Positions 20,335 through 40,032 of a stretch of 61,844 nt of DNA are shown here, piece after piece (the first letter of the stretch is position 1; each line of letters starts with the position of its first letter). This DNA is from Candidatus Pacearchaeota archaeon. Lineage in GTDB: Archaea; Nanobdellota; Nanobdellia; Pacearchaeales; DTIR01. The stretch lies in the NCBI GenBank assembly GCA_018303805.1, contig JAGVXL010000001.1, positions 1 through 61,844 of the forward strand, in the 5' to 3' direction. The notes beneath the pieces are model-generated. The model was not told the origin of the DNA. It searched no databases and saw only the letters and a program-made list of their open reading frames with translations. The translations under genes and the position numbers were made by a program.

Positions 20335-20994
20335 ATGAAAATAAAAGAAATGAATGAAGATTCTAGACCGAGGGAGAGGTTAGTTAAATTCGGTGTTGAA
20401 AACTTAAGTGATGCTGAACTTTTAGCTCTAATCTTGGAAAAGGGCACAAAACAAGAGAATGTTATTGAAATGTCTAATCGCTTGATAAACAAACATGGTT
20501 TAAACAAACTTTCTGATTGCTCATTAAAGGAATTACAAGAAATAAAGGGCATAGGTTTTGCCAAAGCTTGCCAAATACTAGCTTTATTTGAGATAAATAA
20601 AAGAAATGTTCTCTCTGAAAAGCCTAGAACCTTCATTTCCTCTGCTAAATCTGTTTTTGATTTAATGAATGAAAAGCTAAAAGATGAAAAACAAGAACAT
20701 TTTATAGCAATTTTGTTGAATAATAGAAATTATTTTATTAAAGAACAACTTTTAACTAAAGGTGTTTTAGATGCTTCAATAATAGACCCGAGGGAAGTCT
20801 TTAAGCCAGCAATTAAAAATTCTGCATCAAGGATCATCTTAGTACATAATCATCCTTCAGGCAATCCCGAGCCAAGTAAGGAAGATTTAGAAGTAACAAA
20901 AAAACTCTTTGAGGCAGGAGAGCTTTTAGGAATAAAAGTTCTTGATCATGTTATAATTGGCAGAGATAAGTATTGGAGTTGGAAAGAACATTAA
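20335..20994 (+). CDS. radC: RadC/JAMM family protein
   Basis: SRPRERLVKFGVENLSDAELLALIL, LVHNHPSGNPEPSKED. Confidence 0.93.
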   Translation: MKIKEMNEDSRPRERLVKFGVENLSDAELLALILEKGTKQENVIEMSNRLINKHGLNKLSDCSLKELQEIKGIGFAKACQILALFEINKRNVLSEKPRTFISSAKSVFDLMNEKLKDEKQEHFIAILLNNRNYFIKEQLLTKGVLDASIIDPREVFKPAIKNSASRIILVHNHPSGNPEPSKEDLEVTKKLFEAGELLGIKVLDHVIIGRDKYWSWKEH

Positions 20995-22439
20995 ACAATC
21001 TTTTCAAGCTCTTCAAAACCTTCTAATAACTCTTTAATTTCTTTTTTAGCTTCTTTTATTATCTCTTTGCTGTCTCTATAAATTGTTTCTTCGTGTTTTT
21101 CTTTCCTGTATTTATTTATCGATAAATCCCAATCATTGTCCTTTATCTCTTGAATTGACACAAAAAAATGTTTTTTGGCCTTATCTTCATTATTTTCCTT
21201 TAATCGATTATTAAACCCTTTCAAAATGTCAGGTATATCATTTTGCTGAATTTCGTTTCTCTTGTCATCTAAGCTAAATCCGTCCGCTTCCATATCATAA
21301 AACCAGACTTTTTCTGTTGGTTCTCCTTTTGTGAAATATAAAACTGCTGTTGAAACTCCTGCATAAGGCTTGAATATTCCTGAAGGCATAGAAATAATCA
21401 TATCAAGCCTGCATTTTTCTAATAATAACTTTCTTACTGATTTATGGGCATTAGAATTGCCAAACAATACCCCATCTGGAACGATTACAGCACATCTCCC
21501 TCCAACAGATAGAGAATTATAGATTAATTCTAAGAATAATAATTCTGTCTTGCTTGTGCTTATTGTAAATTCGTCCGACTTCTCGCTTTCATTTATAGAA
21601 CCCTTGAAAGGAGGATTAGTTAAGATTAGGTCATAAGTTCCATTTTCATTATATCTCTTAGATAATGTATCCTCGCCCTTAATTTGAGGATCGGTTATTC
21701 CATGCATCATCAAGTTCATGACTGCAATTCTAACCATTGTTCGGTCTATATCATATCCATATAAGGATTCTTCATCAAGTATCTTCTTTTTCTGGGGAGT
21801 TAATGTGCTGACTCCATTTTTTTGATTAATTTTGAGAATGTGTTCATAAGCGTTTACTAAAAAGCCAGCAGTTCCACAAGCAGGATCTAAAATTCTATCG
21901 CCTAATTCAGGTTTTGCTAATTCAACCATCATTTTAATTATGTGTCTGGGAGTTCTAAATTGACCATTCTTACCCGCAGTTGTTAATTCAGATAGCAAAT
22001 ACTCATAGATATCTCCTTGTGTATCTTGGTTTTGTTCTTTGATATGCAAATCATTGATTATGTTTACCGCCTCAATTAAAAGAGAAGCTGTTGGCAGGGA
22101 GAAGCTTGCGTCTTTCATATATTTAGAATATAGGGAGTCTTCTTCTCCTAACCCCCTCATAAATGGAAATACTACATCTCTTACATGTGATAAGATTCTA
22201 TCTGAAGAATACTCGCTCCAAACAGACCATCTGCAGTTTTCATGTCCTGCAAATATAGATTTAAACTTAATGCCTTTTAAGGTTGCATTTTGCTGTTGCA
22301 AAACATCTTTATCTTGCATCTTTTTCATAAAGATTAAGTAGGATATTTGTTCAATTGCCTGCAGGGGATTAGAAATTCCTCCGCTCCAAAACTTATCCCA
22401 TAACTTTCTAATCTTTGATTTGAGTTCCGCGTGTAACAT
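20991..22439 (-). CDS. hsdM: Type I restriction-modification N6-adenine methyltransferase subunit
   Basis: GQFRTPRHIIKMMVEL, DPACGTAGFLVNAYEHIL, LTNPPFKGS. Confidence 0.96.
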   Translation of the reverse strand: MLHAELKSKIRKLWDKFWSGGISNPLQAIEQISYLIFMKKMQDKDVLQQQNATLKGIKFKSIFAGHENCRWSVWSEYSSDRILSHVRDVVFPFMRGLGEEDSLYSKYMKDASFSLPTASLLIEAVNIINDLHIKEQNQDTQGDIYEYLLSELTTAGKNGQFRTPRHIIKMMVELAKPELGDRILDPACGTAGFLVNAYEHILKINQKNGVSTLTPQKKKILDEESLYGYDIDRTMVRIAVMNLMMHGITDPQIKGEDTLSKRYNENGTYDLILTNPPFKGSINESEKSDEFTISTSKTELLFLELIYNSLSVGGRCAVIVPDGVLFGNSNAHKSVRKLLLEKCRLDMIISMPSGIFKPYAGVSTAVLYFTKGEPTEKVWFYDMEADGFSLDDKRNEIQQNDIPDILKGFNNRLKENNEDKAKKHFFVSIQEIKDNDWDLSINKYRKEKHEETIYRDSKEIIKEAKKEIKELLEGFEELEKIV

Positions 22440-22441
22440 GT

Positions 22442-23125
22442 TTATTGTTGTGAAGCCTCCTTTTTAGAGTGTTGTTTGTATCCTAGTTTTTCGAAAATCC
22501 AATCTGCACTTTGCGAAGCGGATTCTACTAAAACAGTTTTAATCGTCCAGTAAGCTCCGGACATAATCGTAGATGCACATGTTGGACATTTTAAAGCAAG
22601 GGAACCTATCCCAAGGGAATTAAAGACTCCCCCCACTAATCCAAATGTAACTTGATGAAATAATGTGGCAGATATAAAAGTTGCTTCTAAAGAAAATTTA
22701 CCCATTTCTTGATAGAATTTTTGATAGCTTTCATTTATGTGTTGTCTTTTATGATCTTTGGCACTTAGTATGACTGAGTTATAATTGTTAATTAGAGGGC
22801 TGTATTTTGTTATTGCCTTAGATGCCTTTGACCAATCTTCCTGAGCGGTTTTTAGTTTAGGAATATTTGTTCTCGTTTGCTCATTAACTATTGAAATAAA
22901 ATTATTTATATTATCTGCAAAATTTTTGTAATCTTCATAACTCTCTACCGAACTAAGATTTAGAGGTTTTAGAGTAGATATTTTGTCAACAAAAACATCG
23001 TTCTCCTTATTTTCACCAATTATAGAATAACCCGAGAATTTTGCAAAGAATAATCCGAAAACCACTAAGAGAATAATACCCACAACAATTAGCGGAGCCA
23101 TTGCTTTTTTGTTCTTCATCTTCAT
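22442..23125 (-). CDS. Unknown protein with N-terminal TM and later hydrophobic segment, inside the hsd operon
   Basis: MAPLIVVGIILLVVFGLFFAKFSG, helical middle, CPTCAS. Its start overlaps the hsdS end. Confidence 0.6.
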   Translation of the reverse strand: MKMKNKKAMAPLIVVGIILLVVFGLFFAKFSGYSIIGENKENDVFVDKISTLKPLNLSSVESYEDYKNFADNINNFISIVNEQTRTNIPKLKTAQEDWSKASKAITKYSPLINNYNSVILSAKDHKRQHINESYQKFYQEMGKFSLEATFISATLFHQVTFGLVGGVFNSLGIGSLALKCPTCASTIMSGAYWTIKTVLVESASQSADWIFEKLGYKQHSKKEASQQ

Positions 23126-24321
23126 AACTCCCCCCTAAACGCTTTCTGCGTCAAAGAATTAAATAACTCTTCTGAGTTCTGCTGAGTTTTCTTGATATCT
23201 TCTTTCATTTTTTCTACATGTTCAACAATTTTTGCAAATTTTTGCTGGAGAGGAAGAGGCGGAAGAGGGATTTTAAGGGAAGAATATTGTTTTGCATTAA
23301 TATTTGGCTGTGCAACTACTTTTTGTTTTGAATTTATCCATGCCAAATACAATGGGGTTTTAGTAAAATAATAAATGTATTCTGGAATAATTTTATGATT
23401 AAATCTATATCTAATTAAATATCCTGCATATTGATAATTAATTTTATCTGAATTATATAAATAAGTTTTCCCAACAGTAGCCCCTGAACGTGCAAACAAT
23501 AAATCTCCTTTCTGTAACAAATATTTTTCTTCCGTCTTAGAAGGAGAAACTTTTTCTTTTTTTAGAGTTCCATTTTCAGTTATATCGGTTATTCTTATAT
23601 ACCTTGTTTTTCCGTCATAATTTATCGCACTTGCTCCAGAACCATACTCTCCAGAGACAATGCAAATTTTCTTATCTCCCAATTCAATTTCTTCAAACCC
23701 TTTATTATAAAACATCTCATTAAACACACTCTTCAAGTACTCATCAAGTAAATCATTAGCATTCTTGCCTCTTTCCTTAAGTTTTTCTGCTTTTTCTAAG
23801 ATTTTGATGATTCTTTCTTGTTCTTTTAAATTTGGGGTGCCGTCTCGGAGGAATGGGAGGAGGATTTTTATTTTAATTATAAAAGAATTATTGATTCCTC
23901 TTTGAGTTGAACCAGTGCATAATTTATCTTTCTCTAAATTAAATCGCTTTGTAGTAAAATAAAGTCTGATATAATCTGGGGAAATGTTTTTGTTTAAACC
24001 AATTCCTGCAAAGCCTGTAGAAAGAATATATTGCTTTACTTCTTGATCATTATTTTTTGTAAAAGCATAAACCTTTAATGTTGCTTGCATTTTAGCAAAC
24101 CAGATAGAATTTATAACTGGTTGCATATTTGCTCTTGAAGGTCGATTATTATACTTAATTTTACATTCTATTTTTTCTATTTTTGTTCCTTTAATTGATT
24201 CTGTAGAAAGATAATCTTTTTCTCCTTCAAACTCTTTTATACCGCTTCCTAAAATTTTAAAATAATTTTTATTTCCGAGTTCTATCTCTTTCCAATTATT
24301 TGTTATTAGTTTAGTTTTCAT
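23122..24321 (-). CDS. hsdS: Type I RM specificity subunit
   Basis: Two target-recognition domains (LPLPPLPLQQKFAKIVEHVEKMKEDIKK; RIIKILEKAEKLKERGKNANDLLDEYLKSVFNEMF). Confidence 0.93.
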   Translation of the reverse strand: MKTKLITNNWKEIELGNKNYFKILGSGIKEFEGEKDYLSTESIKGTKIEKIECKIKYNNRPSRANMQPVINSIWFAKMQATLKVYAFTKNNDQEVKQYILSTGFAGIGLNKNISPDYIRLYFTTKRFNLEKDKLCTGSTQRGINNSFIIKIKILLPFLRDGTPNLKEQERIIKILEKAEKLKERGKNANDLLDEYLKSVFNEMFYNKGFEEIELGDKKICIVSGEYGSGASAINYDGKTRYIRITDITENGTLKKEKVSPSKTEEKYLLQKGDLLFARSGATVGKTYLYNSDKINYQYAGYLIRYRFNHKIIPEYIYYFTKTPLYLAWINSKQKVVAQPNINAKQYSSLKIPLPPLPLQQKFAKIVEHVEKMKEDIKKTQQNSEELFNSLTQKAFRGEL

Positions 24322-24835
24322 TTTTATTTAAATTACTTAGAATTTTATAGATATCATCTTTTAATAAATAAATTTTAATTCTTTTGTATCTTTTTTGTAG
24401 TCTATTTTTAAAATCTTTATCTTCTGTCACAACAATATCTATTTGATCTTTATAAGTTTCAATAGAGTGTGTCTGTAGGGTATCACTAAAATCTGTGCCA
24501 AATTTCAAAGCTATTTCTATTAATTCTTTTATAAAATCTCCAATTTTAAATTTTTCTTTAGGATTTGGAGGGATAGGTATAAAAATATTCTCCCAAGCAG
24601 ATTCTTTTTTAAATAAAAAAGCTTCGGCATCTTTTCTTGATTTTTTTCTTCTTAGAGCTGATGCGGTTTCAACCCCTGAAAATCTTGAAACGAAAAATCT
24701 TAGATTTTTCTTCTTTGAAAAATCTTTTACAATTTTATCTATAAATTTTTTACATTCGTTATGATTGTTATCTTTTTTAGAATAACTAACAAAAATGTTA
24801 GAATCTATAAAGATACCCTTAAAATTTTTATTCAT
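24311..24835 (-). CDS. PIN-domain protein (candidate toxin ribonuclease)
   Basis: IFIDSNIFVSY, SGVETASALRRK, DFSDTLQTHSIE, DIVVTEDKDFKNR, the PIN acidic pattern. Confidence 0.8.
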   Translation of the reverse strand: MNKNFKGIFIDSNIFVSYSKKDNNHNECKKFIDKIVKDFSKKKNLRFFVSRFSGVETASALRRKKSRKDAEAFLFKKESAWENIFIPIPPNPKEKFKIGDFIKELIEIALKFGTDFSDTLQTHSIETYKDQIDIVVTEDKDFKNRLQKRYKRIKIYLLKDDIYKILSNLNKNEN

Positions 24836-24999
24836 CTAAATCTCCTGCTCTTTTTTATTGCCCAGAAACTTACCTTTACCCTTCTTGGAACCTTTTTTGT
24901 ACCTGTAAAAGAAACTCTTCTTCCATATTTATCTCTAAAGCTAACTCTAACTCTTTTAGGGACTTTTTTCGTAGCCCAAAAACTTACTCTTCTAGCCAT
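24832..24999 (-). CDS. 55-aa basic repetitive microprotein, ATGA-overlapping the PIN gene
   Basis: MARRVSFWATKKVPKRVRVSFRDKYGRRVSFTGTKKVPRRVKVSFWAIKKSRRFR*, below the ORF-track cutoff. Confidence 0.7.
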   Translation of the reverse strand: MARRVSFWATKKVPKRVRVSFRDKYGRRVSFTGTKKVPRRVKVSFWAIKKSRRFR

Positions 25000-25000
25000 C

Positions 25001-25660
25001 TTAATCCTCCGCCTCCAAAATTTTAATCAATTCTGTATCTATAAGATCTATTTTGTTTACACTTCTTATAGTAATATCAACTTTTCCGCCAGTTCTCGGA
25101 TTAATAACTATATCTAAAGGTTCTTTTTTTCCGGTAATTTTATTATCAAAAATTTGTTTTTTCCACAACACTGCATTTTTATCTATAATAATTATCTTAT
25201 TGCCCAATACTTTTTCTGGGACTGAAATTATTCTATATCTATAATCTAATCTTGGATATTTTTCCTCATAATCAATTCTGTTCATTAATTTAGTAAATAT
25301 TTCTACATAAAACTTCGTAGAGATTAGAATACAAGCGTCATTAAATTCTATGTGCTTTGGAAATTCTTCAATATCCTCTCTTATTTCAGTCTTGTTTATC
25401 TCTTTTTTGTTCAAAAGAACATCGATTAAAAAATCTCTTTCTCCAATTGCTACTATTCTACCCGCACCAGGAAGCTCTGGATGAAAATTTGGCAAAATTA
25501 ACATATCATCATCAACTAATGGTCTTATTCCTATTTGAGTAAAAGACCTGTCTGTTTTTTCAGTCGCATCAACTTTTACAATGTCTTCAATAACTAAACT
25601 TCTACTATACTCCTCTATAGTATATTTATGAAATTGTTCGATTTTTTCTTTGTTATACAT
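25001..25660 (-). CDS. Hypothetical protein, co-operonic with RHH gene
   Basis: Intact 219-aa ORF overlapping the RHH gene by 8 nt. Confidence 0.6.
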   Translation of the reverse strand: MYNKEKIEQFHKYTIEEYSRSLVIEDIVKVDATEKTDRSFTQIGIRPLVDDDMLILPNFHPELPGAGRIVAIGERDFLIDVLLNKKEINKTEIREDIEEFPKHIEFNDACILISTKFYVEIFTKLMNRIDYEEKYPRLDYRYRIISVPEKVLGNKIIIIDKNAVLWKKQIFDNKITGKKEPLDIVINPRTGGKVDITIRSVNKIDLIDTELIKILEAED

Positions 25661-25940
25661 TATCCTTTTTCCTATTTATTTTAAAATTCCATTCTTTTTG
25701 TTTTAATCTTATTTTTTCCTCAGCCATTTCTTCATCTTCTTTCTTTTTTATCAATATATTTTTATTGAATGACTCTGGATTTTTTTCTATTTCTTCTCTA
25801 ATCATCTCTCTAAGTTTAGTATTAACTGTTTTATTTTCTGTTTGACATATTTTTATAAAATTAGCAAATTCACTTCTATATACTCTTGTAGAAACAATCT
25901 TTCTTTCTTCGCCTCTCAAGGGGTTTTTCTTAGTCATCAA
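25653..25940 (-). CDS. Ribbon-helix-helix-like small protein
   Basis: IVSTRVYRSEFANFIKICQTENKTVNTKLREMIREEIEKN. Confidence 0.5.
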   Translation of the reverse strand: MMTKKNPLRGEERKIVSTRVYRSEFANFIKICQTENKTVNTKLREMIREEIEKNPESFNKNILIKKKEDEEMAEEKIRLKQKEWNFKINRKKDNV

Positions 25941-25998
25941 ATCTGCAAGAATTCTGGCTTTTTAAAGTTTACTGAAAAAAGGTGTATACACCTTTTTG

Positions 25999-26355
25999 TT
26001 AATTATATACTAAAACTTCTGTTCTTGGCGACTTATGCCCTAAATCTAAGGTTAAAGGAATAGGCATATTAACCTCTTTATCTCCTTCTTTAAAGGCAAT
26101 TATAAGCAAAACGTAAACATGATTTGTTTTGTATGTAACAGACATTTTCATGCTTTGGATATGTTTTAGAACTTCTTTGTTAATCCCTAGGTTTTCGCTG
26201 GCATCCATAACTTCAATACCACAAATAAGGTTATTATGGCTTACATCTAAAACAAAATCTCCAATATCTAAAGAAGCCTTTACCTTTTCTCCATCAGATA
26301 TAAATAATATGTCACTATTTACATCATAATCTATTGTTTTAATTGGTCTTGCCAT
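25999..26355 (-). CDS. DUF2283-like protein, putative antitoxin partner
   Basis: IDYDVNSDILFISDGEKVKASLDIGDFVLDVSHNNLICGIEVMDASENLG. Confidence 0.7.
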   Translation of the reverse strand: MARPIKTIDYDVNSDILFISDGEKVKASLDIGDFVLDVSHNNLICGIEVMDASENLGINKEVLKHIQSMKMSVTYKTNHVYVLLIIAFKEGDKEVNMPIPLTLDLGHKSPRTEVLVYN

Positions 26356-26639
26356 TTTCTATCAGCATTCCAAGCACTGATTACTTTTAAACCTTTTGAG
26401 AGTTCAATCTCAATTATCAAAACTAAGGAATATTTTCTGCTCATTTTGAACCATAATTTAAACCTATCTTTTCCCTTTCCTTGTTCGATCCTCTCTAATT
26501 TGTCGATTTGCGATAAAAAGCTTCTGATCATACTCTCATTTACTGGTCTTTCTTCACTTCTTTTATAGAAATGAGAATCAAAAATAATGCTGTCTTGATT
26601 TAACTTTTCAAGAAACCCCTTAATTTCCTTTAATTCCAT
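26331..26639 (-). CDS. DUF4258-like small protein, putative toxin
   Basis: DSHFYKRSEERPVNESMIRSFL...LVLIIEIELSKGLKVISAWNADRKW, overlapping the DUF2283 gene. Confidence 0.6.
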   Translation of the reverse strand: MELKEIKGFLEKLNQDSIIFDSHFYKRSEERPVNESMIRSFLSQIDKLERIEQGKGKDRFKLWFKMSRKYSLVLIIEIELSKGLKVISAWNADRKWQDQLKQ

Positions 26640-26640
26640 C

Positions 26641-29388
26641 TTATTTCCACTTTAGCTTATTGCACTTTTGCACAATTACCTCCAGCTGTTCCTTAGTAAA
26701 AACATCTAAGGGTCTACCTTCTGCTAAAGGATGTTCTGCAAAGTTCTTTAACTCAACATGCTTCGCTCGGATAAAGACCTGCTCTAACAATCTCAAAAAC
26801 TTAAGTTGTTCAGAATTATAATGCTTATTTTTACTCGCTACAAATTTATCAAATTCCCATTTAATCATCTCTTGAGGATCGGGTAATCCCTTAATCTCTA
26901 CTAATTCTCTTAAAAACAAGACAAAATCCTTAGTTTGTTGAATATTCTCTATTGTGAAAGAAGGATTTAATTCTTTCAGTTGCTTTTCAATTTCTAAAAG
27001 TTCTTCAGAAGTAACTCCCTCACCATCTTTAATCTTCTTTAATAATTTGTTACTATTTATGAAATATTGATAGTCTGGATCTTCTTTTACTTGCATTATT
27101 TCTTTTTCTACTTTCAAAACAATATCTGGAGCATTAATTTTTATCATGTTCTTTCTATCAGGTTCATAGAAAATCATTAAGGGAGCAATCTCTCTAATCA
27201 AAAAATCAGCATCTTCAAAGGTAATTTCTTCCCAAAATGGCTCTTGCTGAATTTTTATTAAATCCTCTTGCTTTTGTTTTATTGCATCTAAATTTTTATC
27301 CCAGATTGATTCTACTTTGTTAACTACAAATTCTTCTATCTTCCCAATTTTTTCTTTATCATTTTCTTTAATATAATCAAATAGTTTAACACATTTAGAA
27401 ATAAATCCATAAACTTTGGCATTTTGAGAAGGGGCATAAATTAATAGGGGAGCAATTTCTTCTCTTAATTCTTTAACATGTTCCTTTAAATCAAACTTAG
27501 AAGAAACAATTTTTTTTATAATTTCTTTTTTTTCAATAACTAAGGGAGATTCTATATCAATCTCTTTAATTGTATCTCTAATTTGTTTTTCAACAATCTT
27601 TTTTTCTTTTTCATCTAATTTCCTTTCTAAAGTATCTACTTGTTCTAAAAATATTCTCGTCTTGGCATCTGTCCCAGAAGATTTTTGTTTTGAAGCATTT
27701 AATTTATGCATTAAGACATTAGACCAATCCCCAAACTTAAAATCTAATATCAAGAAATCTTCTTTTGTATGTTGCCCATCTTGATTAGTTGGGAGCCATT
27801 CTTTATATTTACAAGCAGAAATACTCCTTGTTCCTCTTCCAAGCATTTGCCAAAACCTTATTGGAGAAATAACTGGTTTAACAAAAACTAAATTCATTAT
27901 TTCAGGAATATCTATCCCTGTATCTAAAACACCAACAGATAAAGCGATTCTTGGACTATCTCTCTTTCCAAATCTTTTTACTTCATCCATATAACGAGAT
28001 TTATCTGAAGTAATTACTTTTACATCTTTAGCTAAAGTGGGATAAATTTTTTGAAAAAGTAATTCTAATGCCTCTGCATGTTTTACACTTGCACAGAAAA
28101 ATATGCTTTTGCATGGGCGATCGTCATCAGATTTATAGCATCTCTCAACAAACTCTCTTATGATTAATTCATTAGTTTTCTCATCTGTAAAAAATCTTTC
28201 AAATTTAGAGCCCGGTGTCTGGAATTTTTCAGGTTCTTCTTCTTGTAATCTTAAGGATTGTTGTAACTCCCTGCTTAATTTTTTTCCTTCAATCCCTAAT
28301 GATAAAACTTTGGTTTCAATAATATCTGAAACGTAAGGAACTAAAACCTTGTCATTTACGGCAGAGTCATAGTCATACTTAACAGTTGGTTCTCTCCCCT
28401 CACAGTTAAAGAGGTCAAAAGTGTCTCTTGTTTCTACTGTTGAGGGTGTGGCAGTCAATCCTATTTTAAGAGCATCAAAATATTTGAATATATCATTGTT
28501 CTTGTCATAGTAAGACCTGTGGGCTTCATCAAAGATAATTAAATCAAATGCTCCTGTTCCGAATTTTTCGTAGAATTTTCCTCTTGGTTTTTGAGGAGAC
28601 ATTAAAGTTTGAATAGTTGACACATAAAGCCTTGCAGTATCTGAATAACCTTCCTCATTTAATTCACAAACAGGATCATCTGGAAAAAATTCCTTGAAAC
28701 CTTTTTCTTTAGCCTGATTTCCTAAGGAAATTCTGTCAGTTACAAATAGCACTTTTTGAATATAATCTGCTTTTCTAAGTGCTTCAATAACTGCCATCGC
28801 AACTCTTGTTTTACCTGTTCCGGTCGCCATATTGATTAATGCTTCTCTGTAACCTTTAGAAAAATGTTCTAATACACCTTTTGCTGCTTCAACACCCCTT
28901 CTTCTGTCTACTATTCTTAAATTAATTTTAATTTTAGCAGGATCTCTTCTTTTTTGCATTAAACTAACAATTCTATGCAGATCTTTCTGAGAAAATGGAA
29001 GTTTTACTTGTCTTCTTCTATCCAGATCATCAACATAATACCAATTTGTTCCATTTGTCAAGAAAATAGGTATTTTTATTTTAATTTGTTTTTCAATATC
29101 CTCTCGGTAGGTTCTTGCTTGTATCTCTCCTTTTTCAACACTAACTGAAGTTTTCTTTGATTCTATTATTGCAATAGGGCTTCTATCTTCATCTAAAAGC
29201 AAGTAATCTATAAAACGGTCTACCCCTCTTTCAATTCCTGCTTCACGACCGATATATTCTTTAAGTTGAAATTTAGATCTGACTGGATTAACTTCTTCTT
29301 TAACATAATGCCCTCCAACTTTCCATCCTACCCTTTCTAAAACTGGATTAATCAGTTTTGTTCTTGTATCTGCTTCATTTAGACTCAT
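26641..29388 (-). CDS. hsdR: Type I restriction endonuclease R subunit (EcoEI-like)
   Basis: ALINMATGTGKTRVAMAVIEAL (Walker A), LIIFDEAHRSYY (DEAH), GLTATP, MLGRGTRS. Confidence 0.95.
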   Translation of the reverse strand: MSLNEADTRTKLINPVLERVGWKVGGHYVKEEVNPVRSKFQLKEYIGREAGIERGVDRFIDYLLLDEDRSPIAIIESKKTSVSVEKGEIQARTYREDIEKQIKIKIPIFLTNGTNWYYVDDLDRRRQVKLPFSQKDLHRIVSLMQKRRDPAKIKINLRIVDRRRGVEAAKGVLEHFSKGYREALINMATGTGKTRVAMAVIEALRKADYIQKVLFVTDRISLGNQAKEKGFKEFFPDDPVCELNEEGYSDTARLYVSTIQTLMSPQKPRGKFYEKFGTGAFDLIIFDEAHRSYYDKNNDIFKYFDALKIGLTATPSTVETRDTFDLFNCEGREPTVKYDYDSAVNDKVLVPYVSDIIETKVLSLGIEGKKLSRELQQSLRLQEEEPEKFQTPGSKFERFFTDEKTNELIIREFVERCYKSDDDRPCKSIFFCASVKHAEALELLFQKIYPTLAKDVKVITSDKSRYMDEVKRFGKRDSPRIALSVGVLDTGIDIPEIMNLVFVKPVISPIRFWQMLGRGTRSISACKYKEWLPTNQDGQHTKEDFLILDFKFGDWSNVLMHKLNASKQKSSGTDAKTRIFLEQVDTLERKLDEKEKKIVEKQIRDTIKEIDIESPLVIEKKEIIKKIVSSKFDLKEHVKELREEIAPLLIYAPSQNAKVYGFISKCVKLFDYIKENDKEKIGKIEEFVVNKVESIWDKNLDAIKQKQEDLIKIQQEPFWEEITFEDADFLIREIAPLMIFYEPDRKNMIKINAPDIVLKVEKEIMQVKEDPDYQYFINSNKLLKKIKDGEGVTSEELLEIEKQLKELNPSFTIENIQQTKDFVLFLRELVEIKGLPDPQEMIKWEFDKFVASKNKHYNSEQLKFLRLLEQVFIRAKHVELKNFAEHPLAEGRPLDVFTKEQLEVIVQKCNKLKWK

Positions 29389-29401
29389 TTTAAATCCTGC
29401 T

Positions 29402-29575
29402 TTACTTAATAACCCCAATCTCCTTTAATAAATTTAGCCTCTTCTGATGCTCTTCCTCACTAATCTCCTTCCCTTTCTCTTTTTCTCTTTGGTCTTGAAT
29501 AGCTTTGTTAACTCTTATCTCCCTTCCTCTAATAATATTAGCAATCATCTGCTTCTTTCTTCCCATTACAGCCAT
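29402..29575 (-). CDS. 57-aa charged helical protein preceding hsdR
   Basis: MAVMGRKKQMIANIIRGREIRVNKAIQDQREKEKGKEISEEEHQKRLNLLKEIGVIK*, apparently the first ORF of the RM operon. Confidence 0.5.
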   Translation of the reverse strand: MAVMGRKKQMIANIIRGREIRVNKAIQDQREKEKGKEISEEEHQKRLNLLKEIGVIK

Positions 29576-33556: not shown

Positions 33557-33874
33557 ATGCCCAGAAAAATTGTTGATTATCAAAGCCTGAGAAAATTATT
33601 AGATATAAGTGTTGTTGAGATAGCAACCGCTGTTGGCGTTACAGTCCCCTATCTGGAGAAACATCCAAAATCAGAGAAAATCCAGCAGGAGTTAAAGAAG
33701 ATATTCCGCATTTATGAAACGCTGAGCAAATTCGGCAATAAGGATATTTCTGTATGGTTAAGAAAGCCCAATGAGGATTATGAAGGCAAGTCCCTTCTTG
33801 AAATTATCTTGGCAGGCAAGGCAGAAAGTGTAGGGGGATATATAGACGAAATGAATAAAGGGGCGTTGTCTTGA
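33557..33874 (+). CDS. Helical protein with DUF2384-like (Xre/MbcA/ParS) C-terminus
   Basis: WLRKPNEDYEGKSLLEIILAGKAESVGGYIDEM. Confidence 0.5.
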   Translation: MPRKIVDYQSLRKLLDISVVEIATAVGVTVPYLEKHPKSEKIQQELKKIFRIYETLSKFGNKDISVWLRKPNEDYEGKSLLEIILAGKAESVGGYIDEMNKGALS

Positions 33875-33888
33875 ATATTCCCTAAGAA

Positions 33889-34167
33889 CTATTTATGGAT
33901 AAAAAATTCTGAAGGCATATAATATTCCATTCTTGCCTTATTTAGGAAAACCCTCTTCTCATTTACAATCAATGATTCCAAGTCCTTTGATTCCTGCTCG
34001 CTCAATCCAACAAGGCTGAGCACCTTATCTTTATGGACAGTAGGGACTTCTTTTAACTTGTCTATTGCATGAACCGCATTTTTGGCGTAAACATAAAGAT
34101 GAATCTCCCTTGCCTTACCTTTGCCGAAGTGCCCCTGAAGCGTTTGAATCTTATACCAGCATTCCAT
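33889..34167 (-). CDS. Hypothetical protein
   Basis: Intact ORF, 11 nt from the XRE-sigma4 gene. Confidence 0.5.
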   Translation of the reverse strand: MECWYKIQTLQGHFGKGKAREIHLYVYAKNAVHAIDKLKEVPTVHKDKVLSLVGLSEQESKDLESLIVNEKRVFLNKARMEYYMPSEFFIHK

Positions 34168-34178
34168 TTTGCTTTTGT

Positions 34179-34805
34179 TTAAACAAATTCTCTTAATTTT
34201 CTTGATCTAGAAGGGTGCCTTGAATTTCTTAATGCCCTTGCTTCTATCTGCCTTATTCTTTCTCTGCTTACCCCCATAACCTTTCCTGCCTCTTTAAGAG
34301 TGAGGGGTTTATTTCCATTCAAACCAAATCTAAGTTCCAAAACTTCTTTTTCCCTTATTGGCAGCGTGTTTAAGATGTTTTCTATAATACTCTTCCTGTC
34401 TAAATCCTCAGCCTGAGCCGGTTCATAAACCGGAAGCAGCTTCCTATCAATATAGCTCAAGGAAACAAGCTTTTCTTTTGGGATCTCTTTTTCAGCAATC
34501 ATCTTTTTGGTTTTTAGGTATCTTATCTCTTCAGGAAAAACATCCTCGTCCAGCATGAAATACCCTTTTTGCCTGTAAAATTCACATATTTTATTTTGGG
34601 TTTCCTCGCTAGGGTACATTCTGAGACTTTCGTAATGCAAAAAAACCCCGTAAGAAATACCAAGCTCTTCTGCAACCTGTTTAGCACTTAAACCAAGGCT
34701 TTCCCTTGCTCTAACAAGCTCTGCATTCTTTAATCTGGCTTCAAGCCGGAGATTAAAGCCGCCTTTTGTCCGGTATTCTTTAGTTTCCATAAAATAGAAT
34801 ATCAA
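34179..34805 (-). CDS. XRE-type HTH fused to sigma-70 region 4
   Basis: N: LVRARESLGLSAKQVAEELGISYGVFLHYES. C: LPIREKEVLELRFGLNGNKPLTLKEAGKVMGVSRERIRQIEARALRNSRHPSRSRKLREFV. Confidence 0.88.
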   Translation of the reverse strand: MIFYFMETKEYRTKGGFNLRLEARLKNAELVRARESLGLSAKQVAEELGISYGVFLHYESLRMYPSEETQNKICEFYRQKGYFMLDEDVFPEEIRYLKTKKMIAEKEIPKEKLVSLSYIDRKLLPVYEPAQAEDLDRKSIIENILNTLPIREKEVLELRFGLNGNKPLTLKEAGKVMGVSRERIRQIEARALRNSRHPSRSRKLREFV

Positions 34806-34964
34806 TCTTTGCTTTTAAACCTTTCTATCTGTAACCACTTATGAGTAACATATTATGCTAGAAGTACATACAGGAACCCAAAAGAAACAGTAAACTTCTT
34901 AAATCCCCATTGCCCTGAAACTGGAGAGGTGATTTCTGCTCAGGGAATTCCTGAGGATTTTTAA

Positions 34965-37602: not shown

Positions 37603-40032
37603 TTGAACATGGATGATAAATTCATTATAAGTTCCTTGAATGATGACAAATCAAGGGAGATAGCAGAAATTCTCGCAAACAAAACCGCAAGGAAGATTCT
37701 TGACTTCTTGTCAGAGCATGAGTCATCGGAAACAGACATTGCAAAATCTTTGAACTTGCCTATCTCAACAGTCCATTACAATATGCAAAAGCTTCTGAAA
37801 ACAAGGATAGTAGAAATCAAAGACCATTTCTGGAGCGAGAAAGGCAACAGAATAAATATTTATAGTGTTGCAAGGAAGATGATTGTCATTGCCCCAAAAT
37901 ACGCAAGAGGCTATAATGTTCTTAAAAGTATTATTCCCGTGATTATTGTTGCGATATTTGCAATAACACTTATTACTCTTATGTATAATACAAAAATACC
38001 GCCCTTGCCAGGCATCCAAAACTCTGCAGAGGAGATTTCAGATTTGAAGAAATTCTCCTCTCTAGGGGAGTTAAGGGATTTTGTAAGGAAAAATGCCGAA
38101 TTCAAATATTTTGGCTTGTATTATGCAAGAGAACTTACTACCGCTACAGGAACTACTGCTTCAGAATCAGAACCACAAAAAGCAACAGAATTCTCAACAA
38201 CAAACATACAGGTTGAGGGGGTTGATGAAGCCGATATAGTTAAGAATGATGGCAAATATATCTACACACTTTCTGGAAACAGCATTGTGATTGTTGATGC
38301 ATATCCGACTGAAAATGCAAAAATAGTTTCAAGGATAAATTTCACAGGAACAGCAAGTGAAATTTTCATAAACAACAACAAGCTTGTTGTTTTTGGCTTT
38401 GAGCAGGAGAGTTATGCATATATTGCTGGTTCAGAAGAGATAAAGACAGCAGAAGCAACCCAAAGCATGATTCCTCCGATTTACAGTTCCCCAACAACAT
38501 TTATGGAAATCTACAATGTTGAAGACAGGGCAAACCCGGTACTTGAAAGAAACCTTTCGTTCAGGGGAAGCTATTATGACTCGAGGATGATAGGGAATTA
38601 TGTTTATGCAGTGGTTAATCTGCCAGTTATAAACTATAACAATATAATAATGCCGGCATATGCTGAAACTGGCTTGATAAGAGAGGCAAAAGCAACAGAC
38701 ATATATTATTTTGACATTCCAGATGCATCATACAACTTTGTGACAGTTGCAGCAATAAACTTGCAGGATGAAGAAGAAATTTCAACTAAGGTCTTTATGA
38801 TGGGCAATACGCAGAATATGTATGTTTCTACCGATAACATTTATGTGACATACCAAAAAATCCTTGATGCAAAACACTATAATGAAAAACTCATTGCTGA
38901 TGTTTATCTTGTTGTTGCTCCAGATGAAATAGCAGACGAGATTCTTAAGGTAAAAGAATCAAATGAAACATATAGCAATAAAGTAGGGAAGATAGGCAAT
39001 ATTCTACAGGGATATATTGAAACTCTTGACACAGAAAATAGATATAAACTCCAGACAAAATTTGAAGAAAAGATGCAGGGATTCAATGAGGAAATAGAGA
39101 AGGAGAGGCAGAAAACAGTAATTCATAGAATTTCAGTCAATAAAAATAACATAGAACATGAGGCAGAAGGCGAAGTTCCAGGAAATGTGCTTAACCAGTT
39201 CTCAATGGATGAATACAACAATCATCTTAGGATTGCAACGACAACAAGCGGAAGATGGGGAGATAAACAGAGCAACAATGTGTATGTTCTCAATATGGAT
39301 TTGGAAATTACCGGTAAAATTGAAGGGCTTGCAGAAGGCGAGAAAATATACTCGGCAAGGTTCCTGCAGGACAGGGCATATCTTGTGACTTTCAAGAAAA
39401 TAGACCCTTTGTTTGTGATAAACCTTGAAAATCCTGAAAGTCCAGAAGTTCTTGGCTACCTAAAAATCCCCGGTTACTCAGATTACTTGCATCCTTATGA
39501 TGAGAATCATTTAATTGGAATAGGGAAGGAGACAGCAGAGGCAGAGTCAGGCAATTTTGCATGGTATCAAGGTGTAAAAATTTCATTGTTTGATGTGAGT
39601 AACGTATCAAATCCTGTTGAAATAGACAAATATGAAGTGGGGGACAGAGGAACAGATTCTTATGCATTGCATGAGCACAAGGCATTTTTGTTCAGCAAAT
39701 CAAAGAATCTGCTTGTATTGCCTATATTGCTTGCCGAGATAGATAAAAGTCAATACTCCGGTGAGATTTCAGCATGGGCGTATGGTAGGTATGTCTGGCA
39801 GGGGGCTTATGTTTTCAGCATCTCAGCAGAGGATGGAATAAAAGTAAAAGGCAGAATCACACATGAAGACAACAAAACAGCAGATTCAAGCAGATATTAT
39901 TACTGGAATTCAAATTTTGCAGTCAAAAGAAGCTTATACATGGAAAATACACTCTACACCATTTCAGACAGCATGATAAAGGCAAACAATCTGGAGTATC
40001 TTGAAGAGATTAACAAAGTCCAGATTTCTTAG
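37603..40032 (+). CDS. HTH - TM - extracellular beta-propeller protein
   Basis: N-terminal ArsR-like wHTH (KILDFLSEHESSETDIAKSLNLPISTVHYNMQKL), TM IIPVIIVAIFAITLITLMY, then beta-propeller domain with NIQVEGVDEADIVKNDGKYIYTLSGNSIVIVDAYP. Confidence 0.85.
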   Translation: MNMDDKFIISSLNDDKSREIAEILANKTARKILDFLSEHESSETDIAKSLNLPISTVHYNMQKLLKTRIVEIKDHFWSEKGNRINIYSVARKMIVIAPKYARGYNVLKSIIPVIIVAIFAITLITLMYNTKIPPLPGIQNSAEEISDLKKFSSLGELRDFVRKNAEFKYFGLYYARELTTATGTTASESEPQKATEFSTTNIQVEGVDEADIVKNDGKYIYTLSGNSIVIVDAYPTENAKIVSRINFTGTASEIFINNNKLVVFGFEQESYAYIAGSEEIKTAEATQSMIPPIYSSPTTFMEIYNVEDRANPVLERNLSFRGSYYDSRMIGNYVYAVVNLPVINYNNIIMPAYAETGLIREAKATDIYYFDIPDASYNFVTVAAINLQDEEEISTKVFMMGNTQNMYVSTDNIYVTYQKILDAKHYNEKLIADVYLVVAPDEIADEILKVKESNETYSNKVGKIGNILQGYIETLDTENRYKLQTKFEEKMQGFNEEIEKERQKTVIHRISVNKNNIEHEAEGEVPGNVLNQFSMDEYNNHLRIATTTSGRWGDKQSNNVYVLNMDLEITGKIEGLAEGEKIYSARFLQDRAYLVTFKKIDPLFVINLENPESPEVLGYLKIPGYSDYLHPYDENHLIGIGKETAEAESGNFAWYQGVKISLFDVSNVSNPVEIDKYEVGDRGTDSYALHEHKAFLFSKSKNLLVLPILLAEIDKSQYSGEISAWAYGRYVWQGAYVFSISAEDGIKVKGRITHEDNKTADSSRYYYWNSNFAVKRSLYMENTLYTISDSMIKANNLEYLEEINKVQIS

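Follow-up and report, generated by a model that had tools for sequence, protein, structure and literature searches.

A rare archaeal protein family joining an XRE-type helix-turn-helix to a bacterial sigma-70 region 4, a probable two-headed transcription regulator

Our analysis implies that a chromosomal gene of a Candidatus Pacearchaeota archaeon probably encodes a two-headed transcription regulator, in which an XRE helix-turn-helix (HTH) would serve as the anchor and a divergent sigma-70 region 4 (sigma4) would be carried on a flexible tether. What is new is the collinear XRE-sigma4 family, of which eight members were found; no report of a fusion of XRE and sigma4 was found in the open-access literature. 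Sigma4 in an archaeon is, taken alone, already known: the first description of archaeal sigma factors is credited to Rinke et al. 2013 (review PMC6126073), and sigma-70 genes were found to be "particularly prevalent in Woesearchaeota", with mis-binning ruled out, with no anti-sigma factors found for them in DPANN and with their control called unclear (Castelle et al. 2021, PMC8204110, fam00359). A sequence-only reading of this DNA had found an archaeal sigma4 surprising, and this surprise was over-rated, since DPANN sigma-70 is published and about a quarter of the sampled genomes of the phylum match: our XRE-sigma4 query was matched in 90 of 371 (E<=0.001), nearly all via sigma4 alone.

Results

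Gene and genomic setting

The gene is encoded by the minus strand of the analysed stretch of 61,844 nucleotides (the window), which is part of one contig of 575,132 bases. Its listed open reading frame (ORF) opens with an upstream TTG at 34805, and the ATG at 34790 is the start position of the homologues in the alignment. We prefer the ATG because the homologue starts coincide with it and a TATA-like box stands just ahead, so the true product is most likely the 203-residue protein read from 34790 to 34179. The archaeal BRE/TATA-like box GAAAGGTTTAAAAGC (34811..34825, minus strand) ends 20 nt ahead of this ATG, similar boxes precede the neighbouring genes, and the promoter appears to be of the leaderless type. 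The GC content of the gene (0.387) and its codon use fall within the range of the neighbours; together with the archaeal-type promoter box, this typical composition points to a resident, expressed gene.

A 92-residue ORF on the same strand (33889..34167, minus) follows 11 nt downstream and is a possible co-transcribed partner; it has no family match and is not conserved beside the homologues. Further along, a 105-residue protein (33557-33874) shows a weak HTH together with the pattern WLRKPN...G...L, which is somewhat reminiscent of Xre/ParS-type antitoxins; no family exceeded its cut-off there and no adjacent toxin was recognised. Elsewhere in the window, positions 37603-40032 encode an 809-residue protein with an N-terminal winged HTH and a large beta-propeller domain (PF09826), and positions 20991-29418 hold a type I restriction-modification system (HsdM, HsdS and HsdR-like) with a PIN protein. 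The GC content of the latter segment, about 0.29-0.34, is clearly below that of the rest of the window, and it is a probable imported island.

The archaeal setting claimed by the sequence-only reading is confirmed by archaeal SSU and LSU rRNA and an archaeal RNase P RNA in the window, and by a TFB gene at 514841-515383 of the same contig. The assembly is estimated to be 77% complete and 0.4% contaminated.

Domain architecture and structural model

The N-terminal XRE (Cro/C1) HTH comprises residues 23-84 (34539..34724, minus strand) and was delimited by Pfam and AlphaFold2: HTH_31 scores 35.3 bits and HTH_3 scores 35 bits (each E 1.5e-8), both above their cut-offs, that of HTH_3 being 23 bits. 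It is followed by a linker, residues 85-125 (34416..34538, minus strand; homologue alignment and AlphaFold2), which is mostly disordered by prediction and keeps the motif FP...L(I/V)(S/A)L...LLP across four close homologues. Residues 126-203 (34182..34415, minus strand) form sigma-70 region 4, as indicated by Pfam, a PDB match and Foldseek. Sigma70_r4 (PF04545) scores 71 bits (E = 5.9e-20; cut-off 24.1 bits), and the region is nearly complete, with a full-length alignment to solved RpoD/SigA region 4 that includes the HPSRS tail (E 6e-21).

In the AlphaFold2 model, computed from an eight-row alignment, residues 23-84 and residues 126-190 each form a helical unit of good confidence, with a low-confidence linker between them. 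The XRE unit has five helices with pLDDT of about 74-93, and Foldseek on the model retrieves sigma region 4 structures, among them 4g6d with 61% identity over 61 columns and an rmsd of 2.0. Because the mean pLDDT is 69 and the pTM 0.42, the model does not fix the mutual placement of the two domains. The sequence-only reading had proposed precisely this order, a C-terminal sigma4 behind an XRE-like HTH, on the basis of a peptide which is indeed present on the minus strand; the profile search and structure prediction that it had suggested bear the order out, with both profiles over their curated cut-offs and both units compact in the model. The fusion is not an accident of frame or assembly, since the homologues hold both halves collinearly.

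Absence of the remaining sigma regions

Sigma70_r2 (PF04542) was found neither in the protein nor in the whole genome (an assembly of an estimated 77% completeness), even at E<=1, and genome-wide Sigma70_r4 exceeds its cut-off in this gene alone. A sigma profile made from 29 complete factors aligns with the protein only from about residue 126; over the N-terminal 105 residues, where regions 2-3 were sought, the score is at background. Thus, region 4 of a sigma factor is present, while regions 2 and 3 were not detected. Judged by its domains, the protein is not a working sigma factor, and it should be unable to open promoters because no region 2 is detectable in the protein or the genome. The earlier suggestion of a stand-alone sigma4 agrees with this lack of region 2 and with the presence of TFB. 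The TFB ORF itself matches Sigma70_r4 weakly (22.8 bits, just below the cut-off); a kinship of the sigma and TFB folds has been proposed, and this weak score agrees with it.

The XRE-sigma4 family

All eight members, this copy included, are collinear arrangements of XRE, linker and sigma4 of about 190-230 residues. The seven relatives align over their full length (tblastn E 3e-50 to 5e-15); Sigma70_r4 exceeds its cut-off in all seven and HTH_3 in five, with L017 below the cut-off and L047 having no listed HTH_3 match and only sub-threshold matches to other HTH models. Three of the relatives come from separate MAGs, namely L047 (Woesearchaeota), L017 (identical with L048, Nanoarchaeota) and L018 (identical with L049, Woesearchaeota), and the genes on the homologue contigs include some that we take by eye to be archaeal EF-2, EF-1alpha, DnaG-like and archaeosine TGT-like genes.

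Two N-terminal peptide patterns, which may miss bacterial XRE-sigma4 proteins of other sequence, were scanned against 84,980 species genomes and returned only these three archaeal loci and one Bacteroidetes sigma match. A profile of the N-terminal half, run against 200 genomes from the order of this archaeon and 103 from one further order of the class, recovered the known members as well as L053, L054, L055 and L061, which were recognised by reading the ORFs of the profile matches. Any match to this profile was confined to 8 of the 200 genomes of the order, several of the matches being ordinary XRE proteins. The family is rare, sporadic and chromosomal. The survey of DPANN genomes proposed in the sequence-only reading has thus yielded seven relatives in related archaea with differing neighbours; no gene neighbour was shared among the members, and therefore the neighbourhood gives no hint to a regulon.

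The two halves have diverged to different degrees. Over the N-terminal 124 residues this protein is 42-54% identical to three close homologues, whereas the identity in the sigma4 half is about 30-40% among the four close members and 32-34% to L017 and L047; the sigma4 of L018 carries an additional insert. These values suggest that the XRE half is under the tightest selection. As far as the alignments tell, it is the XRE half that stays constant across the family, whereas sigma4, as a reader, has diverged in most of the relatives.

Other arrangements of these domains were also observed. L028 (G162:C25) and L033 (G146:C1) encode sigma4 followed by an RNA polymerase alpha C-terminal domain (PF03118, E 5.5e-22 and 1.8e-17, respectively), and L035 (G364:C33) reads as the same fusion by inspection of its sequence; each combines two bacterial polymerase-recruitment parts in one protein of an archaeal genome that is presumably without that polymerase. 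L036 (G096:C3) combines all of sigma-70 (regions 1.2-4) with an XRE-like HTH at its C-terminus (HTH_31 E 5.7e-5, below the cut-off), a domain order reverse to that of XRE-sigma4. A tandem pair of complete sigma-70 genes occupies positions 343-2190 of a small contig in a same-order genome (L008, G029:C22). Finally, an 877-codon open frame (L060, G128:C1:352000-357500), which presumably encodes the archaeal release factor aRF1, contains an intein-like insert bearing an XRE-type HTH.

Recognition helix and search for TTGACA sites

The recognition helix of sigma4, SRERIRQIEARALRN (34221..34265, minus strand; helix 176-190 of the model), was assigned by residue comparison. This copy keeps R584, E585, R586, R588 and Q589 (E. 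coli numbering), which we take, in role and in numbering, to be the residues that read the −35 element in bacterial sigma. The four base-contact positions R584/E585/R588/Q589 are also intact in L053 and L055 and are lost or altered in the other five of the seven relatives, reading G,A,G,Q in L017, K,E,R,M in L047, R,E,R,R in L018, G,S,R,Q in L054 and G,E,R,Q in L061. The −35-type reader proposed earlier is thus possible for this copy, given its intact contact residues, but is not a common property of the family.

The hexamer TTGACA occurs 68 times in the window against 40.8 expected from dinucleotide shuffles, mostly within genes, where 54 copies stand against 28.9 expected from codon shuffles. 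In intergenic DNA, three further hexamers made of these letters equal or exceed it in frequency, and it lies within 120 nt upstream of only 3 of the 55 genes of the window. These counts give TTGACA no specificity as a promoter signal in the window: it is over-represented, but so are other same-letter hexamers. Neither a −35/−10 pair of the form TTGACA-N15-19-TATAAT nor an operator or other target site for XRE-sigma4 was found in the window.

Discussion

The reading as a regulator rests on both domains exceeding their cut-offs, the lack of region 2, the genome's own TFB, the conserved XRE half and the intact contact residues. The XRE domain would anchor the protein to an operator at or near archaeal promoters, and the tethered sigma4 would add a second contact that varies between lineages, either to DNA (TTGACA-like here) or to a protein; the sigma4 of this copy has probably kept the ability to read DNA resembling TTGACA. 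In this way XRE-sigma4 would repress or modulate how a small number of genes, its own perhaps among them, are transcribed by the TFB/RNAP machinery. Against this, the search of the window gave no target site, the members share no neighbours, XRE and sigma4 folds can bind proteins too, and there are only eight members, scattered sporadically across genomes. In its most specific form, which we put forward tentatively and hold to be rather doubtful, the protein would be a bacterial −35 reader without a sigma factor, steered by XRE to control TFB-dependent promoters through TTGACA-like operators beside TATA boxes. If true, it would be a cross-domain regulator, a bacterial −35 reader at work on archaeal promoters. 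One could argue instead that XRE picks the promoter while sigma4 touches the archaeal RNAP or competes with TFB, and so recruits or blocks the machinery. Contact with RNAP is one of the usual jobs of sigma4 in bacteria, the core fold of TFB resembles sigma4, and the weak Sigma70_r4 match of the genome's TFB (22.8 bits) speaks in the same direction, as do L017 and L054, which keep the sigma4 fold despite the loss of DNA contacts and thereby fit a protein-contact role. However, the DNA-contact residues of this copy are intact and, archaeal Rpb2 is generally considered to lack the flap-tip helix that sigma4 grips in bacteria, so we consider such a co-regulator unlikely.

The origin of the sigma4 half raises the question whether it was recently imported or swapped in, with a bacterial RpoD as donor, and still lacks a settled function. 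It is 56% identical to RpoD of the Listeria/Enterococcus type and 32-34% identical to the sigma4 of L017 and L047; however, these identities are explained just as well by slow, constrained evolution, the composition is native, and a single clade of the four close members is not rejected (p-AU 0.36) in a sigma4 tree of 75 columns that has no resolved branching. A recent import is thus distinctly improbable in our view. Carriage by an archaeal virus or plasmid, the element-borne origin named as one option by the sequence-only reading, would be in line with the frequency of XRE proteins among phage regulators and with the low-GC restriction-modification island 5-14 kb away. Against it stand the chromosome-like GC, the chromosomal homologues and the lack of any recognised adjacent integrase, capsid or other mobile gene; pattern searches of limited sensitivity in IMG/VR viral contigs found no XRE-sigma4, and neither did phage searches, whose candidates were rejected as RpoD-like or as XRE alone; two plasmid "sigma factor-like HTH" proteins were set aside as well, HTH_3 being undetected in them. 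We regard such carriage as highly improbable. An assembly chimera or bacterial contamination can be set aside almost entirely: rRNAs and RNase P RNA of archaeal type share a single 575-kb contig with the gene, its promoter box is archaeal and its composition and codon use native, and homologues stand among archaeal-looking genes in three independent archaeal MAGs, so that a chimera is very unlikely; contamination was rejected on the same markers, composition and homologues.

The two-headed regulator, present in a genome without detectable region 2, would draw a line between sigma that initiates transcription and a sigma4 that has been borrowed to read DNA. It bears on the question of why bacterial sigma-70 parts have been retained in DPANN archaea alongside TBP/TFB, and its size of 203 residues suits in vitro work. 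With the DPANN sigma-70 genes it shares the clade, a region 4 of bacterial type that contains the RERIRQIEAKAL helix and coexistence with archaeal TBP/TFB; in contrast, the full genes (e.g. L006, L008 and L021) have region 2, and XRE-sigma4 has region 4 only, with XRE in front. Compared with bacterial RpoD/SigA (S. aureus sigmaA, 4g6d), it retains 61% identity over 61 residues and R584/E585/R586/R588/Q589, but is devoid of regions 1.2-3, has E574 changed to K, T583 to S and K593 to R, is fused to XRE and resides in a host whose RNA polymerase is presumably archaeal. The XRE (Cro/C1, HTH_3) regulators have in common with it HTH_3 and HTH_31 scores over the cut-offs and the five-helix fold of the model, to which XRE-sigma4 adds sigma4 and the conserved FP...LISL...LLP linker. 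An analogous design is found in the DPANN fusions of sigma4 with the RNA polymerase alpha domain (L028 and L033), which likewise join a stand-alone sigma4 to another DNA- or RNAP-binding domain; there, however, it is the C-terminal domain of bacterial alpha (PF03118) that is attached, at the C-terminus.
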